Positions 2,552 to 60,755 of a DNA stretch of 64,000 nt are shown in pieces; positions within the stretch are counted from its first letter, which is position 1, and every line of letters begins with the position of its first letter. The stretch covers positions 62,001-126,000 of the forward strand of contig JACPUT010000006.1 in assembly GCA_016192145.1 (NCBI GenBank). The letters run 5' to 3'. The position numbers and the translations under genes are program-made. This DNA is from Acidobacteriota bacterium (GTDB lineage Bacteria > Acidobacteriota > Holophagae > Holophagales > Holophagaceae). The notes under the pieces were generated by a model. The model was not told the DNA's origin. It made no database searches and saw nothing but the letters and a program-made list of their open reading frames with translations.

Positions 2552-3778
2552 TATAGCTTTATGCACGCCCTGAACTCGCGGTGCCACTTCCGCCATGAAG
2601 GCCTCCATGCCCCGGATCACGCGATCGCAGTCGTGGTCGAAGAAATCGAACCAGAGCATGAGGCGATCCTCGGGGTGGAAGCGGGCGAGGATCTGCTGGG
2701 CCACGTCCTGGGGGTTGCCGATGAGGGCGTTGTCGGCGGCGCCTTCCACCTTCTTGGGGTCGAGGGTGCCGTCCAGGGCCTTCCAGTAGGCGCCGAGGGC
2801 CTTGGTGGCATGGGCCTTCGCCGCTTCGCGCTGGGCCTCGGGGGTCTTGTCCGCATCCGCGTTGAGGAAGACGAAGACCGTACGGGGCATGTAGTCCCGC
2901 TGCCAGGCCCCGCCCGCGGGATGGTAGGCCTTGGCCATGCGGCGGTGCGTGTCCTCGATGATCTCGGGCTTCGTGATGCTGAGGTTGAAGACCTGCACGG
3001 GGCTGAAGGTGTTGGCGAACTCCTGGAGCTTGGGGTCGTGGCTGCCGATCACCGGCTGCACGAGCTCCCGGCGCCACTCCGCCGGCACGATCTTGGTGAC
3101 CTCGAAGGTCCAGCGGCGGGGCAGGGGGATGAGGTCGCCCGCTACGGCGGCGAGGCCGCGGATGCGCTGCCATTCCTCTTCGGTGCGGAAGTCCTCGCGT
3201 TGAAGCGCGTACTCGGGGACCTCCTGGCTGGAGAAAGTGTCGCCCCGCAGGGCCCGGAGGAAGATCTCCGTGGCCTCCCAGAAGAGCTTGCCCTTCACCT
3301 GGGGCCAGGCGGCCTCCTCCCAATCGTTGCGGGCGTCCACGCCGGTGACGCGGTTCATGAAATCGAAGCGGCCGGCGCTGAAGCCCAGGTGCAGGCGGCG
3401 CTTCTCATCCCCGTTCAACCCGTGGTAGCTGGCCCAGGTGGCCACGCGTTCGGCGTGGGCCAGGGGTCCCCCGTTGCAGACGATGTTCATCACCGCCGGG
3501 CCCACCTCGATGCGCGTCGTGCGGTGGAAGACCTGGGTGGCCAGCTGGAGGATGTCCCCATTGAGCCCCACCTCCCCTTCCCAATGGGGCACCACGGGCT
3601 TGCGATGGGCCTTCTGCACCTCGCTGCTGTAGTGGCTCTCCGCCACCCAGGCCACCCCGTAGCCGAGGCGGTCCCCCGCCTCCACCTGCCGGAAGAAGTT
3701 GCGGAACATCGTCGCCTCGTCGGGAGTGTGACCGTCGACGGGGGTCTGGGAGATGGAGAAGAACAGATCGAAGCGCAT
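2540..3778 (-). CDS. LLM-class flavin-dependent oxidoreductase (luciferase-like)
   Basis: A 412-residue luciferase-like monooxygenase homologue. The N-terminal MRFDLFFSISQTP is a typical first beta strand of the TIM barrel. Further family features are GYGVAWVAESHYSSE near residue 45, QVFHRTTRIEVGPAVMNI near 85 and HLGFSAGRFDFMN near 132. Such enzymes use F420H2 or FMNH2, but substrate cannot be read from sequence. The frame extends 13 codons upstream, but those codons come from a heptad repeat, so the ATG at 3778 is chosen. The C-terminal residues INRE come from the GCGAAT repeat. Confidence 0.82.
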   Translation of the reverse strand: MRFDLFFSISQTPVDGHTPDEATMFRNFFRQVEAGDRLGYGVAWVAESHYSSEVQKAHRKPVVPHWEGEVGLNGDILQLATQVFHRTTRIEVGPAVMNIVCNGGPLAHAERVATWASYHGLNGDEKRRLHLGFSAGRFDFMNRVTGVDARNDWEEAAWPQVKGKLFWEATEIFLRALRGDTFSSQEVPEYALQREDFRTEEEWQRIRGLAAVAGDLIPLPRRWTFEVTKIVPAEWRRELVQPVIGSHDPKLQEFANTFSPVQVFNLSITKPEIIEDTHRRMAKAYHPAGGAWQRDYMPRTVFVFLNADADKTPEAQREAAKAHATKALGAYWKALDGTLDPKKVEGAADNALIGNPQDVAQQILARFHPEDRLMLWFDFFDHDCDRVIRGMEAFMAEVAPRVQGVHKAINRE

Positions 3779-4235
3779 GGGTCCTTGGTCCTTAGTCCTT
3801 AGTCCTTGGCTCCGCATGCGGAGACAGGGGCTTCGGTCCCTTCAATGAGGAATGCAGGCCTTTCAAAGCGGGGACGAGGTTGGTCCAGTCGCGATGGAGT
3901 TCGGAAGACCCATCCAGGTAACCAAGTCTAGAGGCGACTTCCAGGAGGTAGGCCAACTCCGAGGCCGAACCCAGGGAAATCGACACGAAATGACGAAACT
4001 CAGATTCCGTGTGTCGAGCACATCCCTCTACCAGGTTTGTGGCAACCGAGATTGCCGCGCGCCGGATTTGGGACTGGAGCCCGAACCTTTCCTCAGTGGG
4101 AAATCCTTTGGTTTCAAGGTACGTGGGTGCCAGAAGCCGATCGGCCTCCTGGAATACCTTCAATTTCCGGTGATCTCGGCTCATCGAATGGGTCGGCGCC
4201 AGCTAAGGACTAAGGACTAAAGACCAAGGACTAAA
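3779..4235. repeat. TCCTTAG-type heptad inverted repeat enclosing a gene
   Basis: The left arm (3779-3811) is built from period-7 TCCTTAG/TCCTTGG units and the right arm (4203-4235) from the complementary CTAAGGA/CCAAGGA units. Elsewhere in the window the same arms are about 30 bases apart (21295-21404, 40394-40487); here they are about 390 bases apart and enclose one gene. The stop codons of the enclosed gene (3792) and of the SDR gene (4231) are inside the arms. Confidence 0.85.
3792..4184 (-). CDS. Four-helix-bundle protein (S23 / 23S rRNA intervening-sequence family)
   Basis: A 130-residue protein of the family first found in intervening sequences of 23S rRNA (TIGR02436 type). Diagnostic stretches are LKVFQEADRLL, GLQSQIRRAAISVATNLVEG near residue 35, and SISLGSASELAYLLEVASRLGYL near 68. 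It is expected to fold as a helical bundle that may bind nucleic acid; function is not known. It is not in an rRNA gene here. It lies inside a heptad inverted repeat, and its last residues (EPRTKD) and stop are encoded by the repeat arm, so gene and element appear to travel together. That last point is inference. Confidence 0.85.
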   Translation of the reverse strand: MSRDHRKLKVFQEADRLLAPTYLETKGFPTEERFGLQSQIRRAAISVATNLVEGCARHTESEFRHFVSISLGSASELAYLLEVASRLGYLDGSSELHRDWTNLVPALKGLHSSLKGPKPLSPHAEPRTKD

Positions 4236-5022
4236 TCGCGTTCATCCTTCCGCCATCCACGGCGATGCTCTGTCCGCGGATATAGGCGGCATGGGGGCCG
4301 GCGAGGAAGGCGATCATGGCGGCGGTCTCGCGGGGGTCGGCCACGCGGCCCTCGGGGATGATCCGCACCATGTCCGCCTGAACTTCCGCCACGGTCTTGC
4401 CGGTGCGCGCGGCGGTGGCCTCCTCGATGGCCTCCAGGCGCTCGGTGGCCGTGGCGCCCGGGAGCACGTTGTTGATGGTCACGTGGGGGGGCAGTTCCTT
4501 GGAGAGGGTCTTGGCCCAGGAGGCCGTGGCGCCGCGGATGGTATTGGAGACGCCGAGGTTCGGCAGGGGCTCCCGGACGCTGGTGGAGATCACGTTGATG
4601 ATGCGGCCGTACTTGGCCTTCACCATGCCCGGAAGGAGAAGCTGCACGAGGAGGTGGGGGGCCATGAGCAGGCGGCCGAAGGCCAGGGCGAAGTCGGCTT
4701 CGGTCGCCTGGAGGATGGGGCCGCCGGGAGGGCCTCCGGCGTTGTTCACGAGGATGTCGACGGGGCCGTGGACGGCGAGGAACTCCTCCATTTGGATTTT
4801 GAGGCCGGCACGATCCTCCAGATCCGCCACCAGCACGTGGACCTGGGGTGCACCCGCGGCCTTGAGCACCTGCCGGAGTTCCTCAAGCTTGTCCTCCGAA
4901 CGGGCAACCACAGTGACGGCGGCGCCCTTGGCCGCGAGAGCCAGCGCGGCGGCGCGGCCGATGCCGGCGCTGGCGCCGGTGACCAGGGCGTGGTGCCCCA
5001 GGAGATCGTGATCATGCACCAT
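4231..5022 (-). CDS. SDR-family NAD(P)-dependent oxidoreductase
   Basis: A 263-residue classical short-chain dehydrogenase. Visible features are the cofactor motif TGASAGIGRA near residue 16, NNAGG near 92, a Ser in VISTSVRE near 145 and the C-terminal SIAVDGGRMNAI. The usual catalytic YxxxK is not obvious: the expected region reads NTIRGATASWAKTL, so Tyr appears to be replaced, as in some divergent SDRs. Substrate is unknown. It overlaps the upstream tryptophan dioxygenase gene by 11 nt, so the two are probably co-translated, although no link to kynurenine metabolism can be shown. The stop lies in the heptad repeat arm. Confidence 0.82.
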   Translation of the reverse strand: MVHDHDLLGHHALVTGASAGIGRAAALALAAKGAAVTVVARSEDKLEELRQVLKAAGAPQVHVLVADLEDRAGLKIQMEEFLAVHGPVDILVNNAGGPPGGPILQATEADFALAFGRLLMAPHLLVQLLLPGMVKAKYGRIINVISTSVREPLPNLGVSNTIRGATASWAKTLSKELPPHVTINNVLPGATATERLEAIEEATAARTGKTVAEVQADMVRIIPEGRVADPRETAAMIAFLAGPHAAYIRGQSIAVDGGRMNAI

Positions 5023-5836
5023 AGGTGCCTCCTCCCAAGCGGGAACGGACTTCCCACAGGAGGGGGAAGAAGCGGTGTTCGGTGCGGCCCTTGAGGTAGT
5101 TCACGCCGGGATCCTTGAAGGCATCCTCGCCGCTCATCTTCATCTGGTCCGTGTGCTGCACGCCGGTGCCCGGTTTGAAGCCGATCATGCGCTCGGCCAT
5201 GAGGTAGTGGCGGTTGCGCCAGATGCGGAAGGCCTCGTCGTACTCGATCATGGCCTCCGCCAGCTGGTGCAGATCGAGCATGCGCTCGTTGCCGTACACC
5301 TCGACGAGGGCGTGGAGCTGCTGCTCCTTGTCGGAAACCTGGAAGCCCCGGCTGTGCAGGAGATCCACGAAGCCATCCCAGAGGCTGGCGTCGTGGAGGG
5401 CCTCCTTGAGCAGGCCCGTGTTGGCGGGATCGCCGGGATAGAGCTGGAGGTAGCGGGGATCCTTCATGCCGGAGTAGAACTCCAGGGCCCGGAACTGGGC
5501 GCTCTGGAGGCCGGAGGCGGGTTTGAGGCAATCGCGGAATTCCAGGAACTTCGCCGGGCTCATGGTCTCCATGACGTGCATCTGCTGGATGAGCACCCGC
5601 GTGATCTCGATGCAGCGGCGCAGGAGCCAGTAGGCGGGGCCCGCATGGCCCTTCTGCAGATGCCCGATGGTGGCCCGGGCCTCGTGCAGGAGGAGCTTGA
5701 ACCAGAGCTCGTAGACCTGGTGGACGATGATGAACTGCATCTCGTCGTGGGCCTCGGGCTCGCTCAGCGGCTTCTGGAGGCTCAGAAGCCCCTGGATCTG
5801 GAGGTAGCTCTCATAGGAAGGCTGGGAGGTGGACAT
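5012..5836 (-). CDS. kynA: Tryptophan 2,3-dioxygenase
   Basis: A 274-residue haem dioxygenase that opens the indole ring of L-tryptophan to N-formylkynurenine, the first step of the kynurenine pathway. Hallmarks are MQFIIVHQVYELWFK near residue 33, containing the distal histidine, LLRRCIEITRVL near 70, QSAQFRALEFYSG near 107, and RNRHYLMAERMIGFKPGTG near 208, containing the proximal haem-ligand His. Length and motifs match the family over its whole extent. It is first in a two-gene unit with the SDR gene. No kynureninase or formamidase is present in the window. Confidence 0.95.
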   Translation of the reverse strand: MSTSQPSYESYLQIQGLLSLQKPLSEPEAHDEMQFIIVHQVYELWFKLLLHEARATIGHLQKGHAGPAYWLLRRCIEITRVLIQQMHVMETMSPAKFLEFRDCLKPASGLQSAQFRALEFYSGMKDPRYLQLYPGDPANTGLLKEALHDASLWDGFVDLLHSRGFQVSDKEQQLHALVEVYGNERMLDLHQLAEAMIEYDEAFRIWRNRHYLMAERMIGFKPGTGVQHTDQMKMSGEDAFKDPGVNYLKGRTEHRFFPLLWEVRSRLGGGTYGA

Positions 5837-21294: not shown

Positions 21295-21404
21295 GGTCCT
21301 TGGTCGTCGGGTCCTTAGTCCTTAGTCCTTAGTCCTTAGTTGGGTACGGCCGCTCGAACGGCACGGATCAGCCAAGGACCAGGGACTAAGGACTAAGGGC
21401 TAAA
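21295..21404. repeat. TCCTTAG-type heptad inverted repeat
   Basis: Left arm 21295-21339 contains four consecutive TCCTTAG heptads. The right arm (21371-21404) carries the complementary CTAAGGA units, and the intervening 31 bases are GC-rich (TTGGGTACGGCCGCTCG). It lies between nuoF and a convergent gene. Confidence 0.9.
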
Positions 21405-21411
21405 GTCTTCT

Positions 21412-31643: not shown

Positions 31644-31758
31644 GGCTCTGGGCTATCGGCTCTCGGCTCTGGCTGGGTGCGGCAATTCCGGTCGGTGAGG
31701 CCAGGGTCGAATCCTTGAACGCCCGGGATCTGCAAGAGCCCAGAGCCCAGAGCCCATG
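31644..31758. repeat. GGCTCTG-type heptad inverted repeat
   Basis: The left arm (about 31644-31674) has GGCTCTG, GGCTATC and GGCTCTC heptads. The right arm (31734-31758) has the complementary CAGAGCC units. It lies between the ThrE-like and FAD-oxidase genes. Confidence 0.85.
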
Positions 31759-39578: not shown

Positions 39579-39654
39579 TAGGCTGGAGACTGGAGACCGG
39601 AGGCTGGAGTGGGTTGGGGCTAGCCTCCAGCCTACAGCCTCCAGTCTCCAGTCC
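39579..39654. repeat. CTGGAGA-type heptad inverted repeat
   Basis: Arms of GGCTGGAGACTGGAGA-type heptads (39579-39611) and the complement (39621-39654), with a loop of about 9 bases. It lies between pyrH and tsf in an otherwise tight operon. Confidence 0.9.
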
Positions 39655-40393: not shown

Positions 40394-40487
40394 GGTCCTT
40401 GGTCCTTAGTCCTTCGTCCTTAGCTTGGCCGAGCAGTTCGATCGTGCGGCGCCAGCCAAGGACCAAGGACCAAGGACCAAGGACCAA
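40394..40487. repeat. TCCTTAG-type heptad inverted repeat
   Basis: Left arm 40394-40424 (TCCTTGG and TCCTTAG heptads), right arm 40456-40487 (CCAAGGA x4), loop about 31 bases ending GGCGCCAGCC. It lies between rpsB and tsf and would form a hairpin in the operon mRNA. Confidence 0.9.
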
Positions 40488-44880: not shown

Positions 44881-44993
44881 CTCTTGGCTCTGGGCTATAG
44901 GCTTTAGCTGCCTCCGACCCAGCCTACCTGTGATGCACGCCCGAGTGGGTCGATCTCAGCTAGAGCCAAGAGCCTAGAGCCTATAGCCTAAAG
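44881..44993. repeat. GGCTCTG-type heptad inverted repeat
   Basis: Left arm 44881-44910 (CTTGGCT, CTGGGCT, ATAGGCT heptads) and right arm 44959-44993 (AGAGCCA, AGAGCCT, ATAGCCT). The loop holds an inner GACCCA/TGGGTCG pair. It ends 2 bases before the aminotransferase ATG and so forms its 5' leader; AAAGG at its edge is the ribosome site. Confidence 0.9.
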
Positions 44994-60642: not shown

Positions 60643-60755
60643 ACTCTTGGCTCTTGGCTCTTGGCTTTGGGCTCTGGCTCGATGCGACCCACAGGGGCGG
60701 AAGGGCTCGGGTGGGTCGGCGGCAGCAGGAGCCCAGAGCCTAAAGCCTAAAGCCC
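60643..60755. repeat. GGCTCTG-type heptad inverted repeat
   Basis: Left arm 60643-60680 (CTCTTGG x3, CTTTGGG, CTCTGGC) and right arm 60728-60755 (AGCCCAG, AGCCTAA units). The loop includes CGACCCAC and GTGGGTCG, shared with the element at 44.9 kb. It lies between convergent genes. Confidence 0.9.

Follow-up and report, generated by a model that had tools for sequence, protein, structure and literature searches.

An S23-family gene enclosed by inverted heptad repeats in an Acidobacteriota genome, and a possible role of S23 proteins in the spread of short tandem repeats

The window analysed here, a stretch of 64,000 nucleotides from an Acidobacteriota bacterium of the family Holophagaceae, carries near its beginning a small gene enclosed by inverted arrays of a seven-nucleotide repeat. 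The gene (3792..4184, minus strand) encodes a four-helix-bundle protein of 130 aa, which belongs to the S23 or 23S_rRNA_IVP family according to its matches to PF05635 (1.5e-27; 96.3 bits against a curated cut-off of 33.8) and TIGR02436 (91.9 bits against a cut-off of 24). The left heptad array (GGTCCTTGGTCCTTAGTCCTTAGTCCTTGG, 3780..3809, plus strand) consists of about 4.3 units and the right array, its inverted complement (CTAAGGACTAAGGACTAAAGACCAAGGACTAA, 4203..4234, minus strand), of about 4.5 units. Both form the core of longer inverted arms at 3766-3811 and 4201-4246, which are 46 nt long, 80% complementary and 389 nt apart, with the S23 ORF as the sole gene between them. An earlier note on this DNA had described arms about 390 bases apart around a single S23-family gene whose stop codon and last residues come from one arm, and both statements hold: the stop codon TAA (3792-3794) and the four terminal residues RTKD are read from heptads of the left array. 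A conserved inner segment (TGGGTCGGCGCCAGC, 4188..4202, minus strand) separates the S23 start from the right array and is common to several gene-less elements, and a short terminator-like palindrome (CTCCGCATGCGGAG, 3808..3823, no strand assigned) is located at the 3' end of the gene.

The arrays fill the space between the two neighbouring genes with almost zero bases to spare. The right array supplies the stop codon (4231-4233) of an SDR gene, and a mere 1-2 nt separate the beginning of the left array from the likely start codon of a luciferase-like gene (ATG, 3776-3778). By profile search, the genes adjoining the element encode a luciferase-like monooxygenase, an SDR protein and a tryptophan 2,3-dioxygenase. 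No nuclease, transposase or reverse transcriptase was found between the arms, and a search of positions 3000-5200 with Rfam gave no rRNA family match and nothing else above the gathering score. As a separate observation, the minus-strand reading of the heptads at 3776-3790 contains AAGGA, a Shine-Dalgarno-like core, directly in front of the likely start of the luciferase-like gene; the arrays could act as ribosome-binding sites.

The repeat is not restricted to this gene. The TCCTTAG heptad pattern, with three mismatches allowed, has 19 matches in the window compared with 0.09 expected, and 0 shuffles reached 19, which excludes chance. In the whole 3.8-Mb assembly 38 double-heptad matches were counted, against 0 for the reversed control pattern. 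Two gene-less inverted-heptad hairpins are located in the window at 21310..21408 and 40394..40487, each with a loop of 32 nt, in agreement with the spacing of about 31 bases noted earlier for two other TCCTTAG loci. The earlier observation that the sequence just inside the right arm matches the loop of the 40.4-kb copy is likewise correct, and extends further: GGCGCCAG is common to this copy and to others, and the 40.4-kb hairpin has GGCGCCAGC in common with the S23 element.

A second PF05635 gene, which completes the set of two in the assembly, is found at G000:C1:468701-469009. It is flanked by inverted period-7 arrays of GCTGGAG/CTCCAGC, a heptad with 118 matches in the genome compared with 1 for the reversed control pattern, and one gene-less GCTGGAG element lies in the window (39583..39653). 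Different S23 genes, even within one genome, have different heptads. Both types are also present away from S23 genes as inverted pairs or gene-less hairpins; the copies examined are mostly hairpins of about 50-180 nt, some are single arrays, and the number of units varies. Inverted elements of a third type, GGCTCTN, occur in the window at 31644..31756, 44884..44990 and 60644..60754, and no PF05635 gene of this type is present in the assembly. We also observed that the GGCTCTN elements resemble the arms of two S23 loci in related genomes (L043 and L115). A further side observation concerns an inner palindrome, CGACCCA...TGGGTCG, which recurs in this genome within heptad elements of each of the three types. 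Its motifs are found in the window at 44915-44952 and 60685-60718, inside the second and third GGCTCTN elements, and at 4189-4195, and besides at L013, L014, L017, L027, L293 and L304; both paired occurrences in the window fall within heptad arms. Since the TCCTTAG loops have this core in common, some TCCTTAG hairpins may move as whole units.

Arrays of this kind accompany S23 genes far beyond the genome under study. Of 77 family genomes, 23 contain PF05635 genes. In the sample of the phylum Acidobacteriota the figure is 186 of 396, or about half, and such genes occur in many other phyla as well. We scored 175 loci from genomes of this family and phylum, from GTDB contigs of many phyla, from viral contigs and from plasmids. 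Arrays of 6-9-nt units (mostly 7 nt) or inverted arms lie at most 300 nt from the gene at 129 of these loci (74%), whereas only 10 of 132 control windows contain them, which answers the question, raised earlier, of whether other copies of the gene carry flanking arms. With the strict criterion of tandem and inverted repeats, 89 loci stand against 0 control windows. Period-7 arrays occupy 116 of 327 flank sides compared with 8 of 293 windows taken 900-1400 nt away, and at 60% of the loci the sequence upstream of the gene matches the reverse complement of that downstream, a share that falls to 2.8% when flanks are swapped between loci. Chance or artefact as the source of the linkage is ruled out by the window statistics, the control windows and the swapped-flank test. 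About a quarter of the S23 loci are without arrays by the tests applied.

The arms commonly have four to five units. The median span from arm to arm at S23 loci is 479 nt, so that only the S23 gene fits inside. Among plasmid loci, mostly cyanobacterial but including Azospirillum, hepta- or octamer arrays were found beside the gene in 12 of 12 cases and, judged by eye, are inverted in 10. On cyanobacterial plasmids (L379, L380, L381 and L386) the gene and its arrays are placed between cas6 and cas4, between cas10 and a Cmr3-family gene, or between the ribonucleotide reductase beta and alpha genes. One genome (G053) has ten PF05635 matches, and the one examined (L051) is flanked by arrays of a 6-nt unit (CGTGCC) that run in the same direction on either side.

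The heptads also have a common form. Those of 75 loci align to RG-N5 without flipping, with G at the second position in 95%, and the information content of this alignment is 3.93 bits compared with at most 3.28 when polarity is randomised and at most 2.67 when positions are shuffled. The heptads thus keep a fixed polarity relative to the S23 gene. Heptad similarity rises steadily with the identity of the S23 proteins (Mantel p 0.002), a correlation to which co-inheritance of gene and arms contributes and of which it would alone produce some part. Unit length (7 versus 8) did not track the protein clade significantly (p 0.068).

Dispersed copies follow the cognate gene as well. Within the set of 77 family genomes, a single TCCTTAG match falls outside this genome. 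The six genomes that carry an S23 gene flanked by AGCTATC have 36-83 matches to this heptad, and other genomes mostly 0-2 (6 versus 41 genomes, p 3e-5), and AGTCTTC is most frequent in G007 and G048, both of which hold AGTCTTC-flanked S23 genes. Exceptions include G049 and G013, which are rich in AGCTATC (61 and 31 matches) and have no cognate S23 gene. A strict rule of one heptad type per S23 gene was rejected, as orphan heptads exist. The earlier note had suggested that the gene is either cargo of the repeat or a partner in spreading it. Its second option is supported by the finding that the same kind of arms flank S23 genes across phyla, each with its own heptad, and further from the abundance of dispersed heptads where the cognate gene is present.

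Purely neutral dynamics are hard to reconcile with this pattern. Slippage and quasi-palindrome correction would build arms at hairpins, and S23 genes would insert preferentially beside such repeats; unpaired single arrays are indeed common, as is variation in the number of units, and the arms are imperfect and turn over fast in comparisons of orthologues. Slippage, however, cannot put one heptad at dozens of loci, and the model leaves unexplained why heptad identity tracks the protein, why two S23 genes in one genome have two heptads and why polarity is fixed. We consider it barely credible.

Comparison of orthologous sites separates the history of the gene from that of the heptads. In a genome of the same genus (G054), the orthologue of the window locus has neither S23 nor TCCTTAG, and the 70-nt gap (L068:1431-1500) is occupied by another kind of hairpin, made of CGCAGATTA-like units, in place of the S23 element. 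Another short-unit hairpin, CGCGAAAAT-like, was observed in G005 (L326) at the L322 site. The AGCTATC-type S23 gene of a related genus occupies one orthologous site in G012, G007, G033, G046 and G042, and in G039 as far as the contig reaches. Many relatives show clean gaps of 35-122 nt at this site, some of them with 88-92% identity in the flank, and the orthologous genes are under purifying selection (dN/dS 0.07-0.31). One fixed site together with clean gaps indicates that this gene is resident and is either kept or lost, whereas hairpins without the gene occur in large numbers at dispersed sites. Empty orthologous positions, to which the earlier note had pointed as a check, therefore exist in clean form for the AGCTATC-type locus; the window locus has an orthologue that lacks the S23 element and carries another hairpin. 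The reading of the gene as cargo is not supported in the related genus, where it is testable.

Gene-less sites reveal how the heptads themselves change. For eleven AGCTATC loci of G012 that hold no gene, we aligned the orthologous sites of G006 and G005. At several of them the central terminator-like hairpin is conserved and the heptads alone differ, and the loops are specific for each locus. One of these hairpin sites (L320) was followed through 30 genomes, and nearly all of them retain CAGTCTAAAAGCAACGGCGCCC...GGGCGCCG. About one third of the genomes have no heptads on its flanks; among the rest, some have AGCTATC-type units, others AGTCTTC/AGTCCTC-type units and one AGGCTTC-type units, and in G008 the types are mixed. 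Where both sides could be typed, the type was the same on the two sides of the hairpin in 13 of 14 genomes; in G031 and G014 it differs from that of the genome's own S23 gene. A conserved hairpin with the same type on both sides is unlike the trace left by insertion of a ready-made element, and these alignments point to heptads being gained and replaced on both feet of a standing hairpin. The earlier note had named arms that occur independently of the gene at orthologous loci as evidence against its view. This is what we see at gene-less sites, where hairpins stay and heptads change, so that the repeat is not a fixed unit carrying the S23 gene. In the case of L356 (G008), a hybrid array was observed in which the right-side units nearest the hairpin read CTGAAGG and the outer ones CTGATGG and CTGACAG, as if added outside.

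These comparisons bear directly on a composite element, in which an S23 unit with heptad terminal inverted repeats would be moved by a putative transposase and the gene-less hairpins would be MITE-like derivatives by internal deletion. Such an element would account for the empty orthologous sites, for the inner GGCGCCGACCCA segment found beside the arm in both the TCCTTAG S23 element and gene-less copies, and for plasmid S23 genes that are located inside cas, nrd and cmr clusters. However, the S23 gene did not move in the genus tested, no transposase lies between the arms, and the 11 orthologous comparisons, inspected by eye, showed no constant target duplication, although in them the intergenic sequence is usually replaced, which blurs the ends. 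The differing loops of the AGCTATC loci and the native hairpins kept at several sites speak against it too. The switch of heptad type around a fixed hairpin has already weakened this explanation, which appears quite improbable.

A different possibility is that the heptad hairpins are selected binding sites at gene ends and terminators, with S23 as a DNA- or RNA-binding regulator, its own arms as autoregulatory sites and spread as a secondary effect. Arrays are often found at stop codons or terminator-like hairpins, the fixed polarity and the RG-N5 anchor would suit a binding site, and in Geobacter metallireducens tandem repeats of seven or eight nucleotides that form pairs on opposite strands have already been proposed as sites of a global regulator (PMC2700814). 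Conserved regulation would nevertheless not be expected to let the heptad type change freely at an orthologous site or to leave it often absent in close relatives. The neighbouring genes in the annotated plasmid loci have no common theme, and the association of S23 with arrays holds in very distant hosts with unrelated neighbours. We therefore regard a primarily regulatory role as unlikely.

The S23 family has no known function (PMC4990558). The AF2 model of the window protein is a four-helix bundle (pLDDT 88.5) closest to XCC0516 (2gsc; Z 18.5, rmsd 2.1 over 112 residues), followed by a further S23 protein, 2rld, and by Avd. The match to Avd (Z 13.8-15.0, 6% identity) is just above that of unrelated helical bundles (11-13.6), and the NCBIfam Avd profile gives 16 bits against a cut-off of 80. 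XCC0516 was reported as a homopentameric toroid (PMC4990558). By analogy to this closest solved relative, the window protein would probably form a pentameric ring, and arms of four to five units would suit one unit per subunit.

The resemblance to Avd also belongs to a third alternative, an RNA-level element that would be the intergenic counterpart of rRNA intervening sequences (IVS): RNase III would cut the transcript stem and S23 would bind the released RNA, possibly with Avd-like retro-mobility by a reverse transcriptase. The 23S IVS of Coxiella, with the same protein family, a stem-flanked ORF and tandem heptamers (PMC4990558), fits this idea, and the hairpins are very stable as RNA. Yet no reverse transcriptase was found among the checked window neighbours of the S23 gene, and G.U pairs are not in excess over A.C mismatches when the arms are read on the S23 sense strand (101 versus 93, p 0.21). 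Pairing in the arms is thus not apparently selected at the RNA level, a candidate we rejected for this reason; pairing at the DNA level is favoured. Overall, the RNA-level explanation seems very improbable.

On balance we lean, with modest confidence, towards the view that S23 gene and heptad arrays together make up a single, two-part system for propagating repeats, in which the protein acts in trans on its cognate heptads. The S23 ring would bind a tandem array of its own heptad, each subunit taking one unit, and might promote annealing, template switching or copying of heptad strands beside hairpins. Once a hairpin has gained an array on one side, the array could be copied across to the other, which would render the two arms complementary. 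The S23 gene would persist because it lies inside such a site and the repeats depend on its product. As nuclease, transposase and reverse transcriptase are lacking between the arms, cutting and synthesis would have to come from replication and repair enzymes of the host. Against such a two-part system speak heptad-rich genomes without a cognate S23 gene (G049 and G013) and the GGCTCTN type without any S23 gene; past loss or another actor is needed here. The non-cognate type at the L320 site in G031 and G014, the S23 loci without arrays and the inner core common to TCCTTAG loops count against it as well.

In the literature, which we searched with coverage of few subscription papers or preprints, no link between S23 genes and heptamer arrays was found, nor do the published accounts, in their accessible text, explain where the heptamer repeats of cyanobacteria and other bacteria come from. 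The link described here gives the S23 family and the heptamer repeats one testable hypothesis, namely that each S23 protein binds its own heptad. If this is true, short tandem repeats can be spread in trans beside hairpins at transcript ends without a known transposase, and the S23-bearing rRNA intervening sequences become a special case of a trans-acting repeat system. More tentatively, and as a possibility we rate below an even chance, S23 proteins and their cognate 7- or 8-nt words may form a widespread, previously unrecognised class of systems that write tandem repeats in trans onto both flanks of intergenic hairpins. The cyanobacterial STRRs, the TAACTGA repeats of Beggiatoa, the GGGAATC repeats of Xanthomonas, the paired repeats of Geobacter and the heptamers of rRNA IVS would then be products or relatives.

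Known systems resemble parts of this arrangement. A transposon of the MITE/TIR kind differs in its transposase, as the window element holds S23 only. With Avd of diversity-generating retroelements the predicted model has its fold in common, but sequence identity and profile score are low and the checked window neighbours include no reverse transcriptase. The rRNA IVS with an S23p ORF have the same protein family, and the ORF is likewise placed within a stem of complementary inverted ends; the window element, in contrast, lies outside rRNA genes, between the SDR and luciferase-like genes, and has dispersed gene-less relatives with the same heptad. The relationship to rRNA IVS, to which the earlier note had referred, is strengthened by the three tandem GACAGAT heptamers just upstream of S23p in the Coxiella IVS (PMC4990558), which in another register read AGATGAC and fit RG-N5. 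The tandem heptamers of cyanobacteria, marine Beggiatoaceae, Xanthomonas and Geobacter are, in the available parts of these reports, largely intergenic, partly arranged as inverted pairs and specific for each genome (PMC4692102, PMC4679880, PMC2700814). In those same parts they are described without a link to S23, whereas here such arrays flank S23 genes of cyanobacterial plasmids. A parallel in organisation is offered by the RAYT/REP/REPIN system, where a resident gene is flanked by its own repeat class, gene-less inverted doublets are dispersed, and each gene in one genome has a different class (PMC3116915). RAYT, however, is a Y1 HUH transposase, whereas the protein described here, a small S23 bundle, matches PF05635 only and has no known catalytic domain. 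REPs are fixed palindromes; the elements described here are tandem heptad arrays that surround locus-specific hairpins and switch their type.
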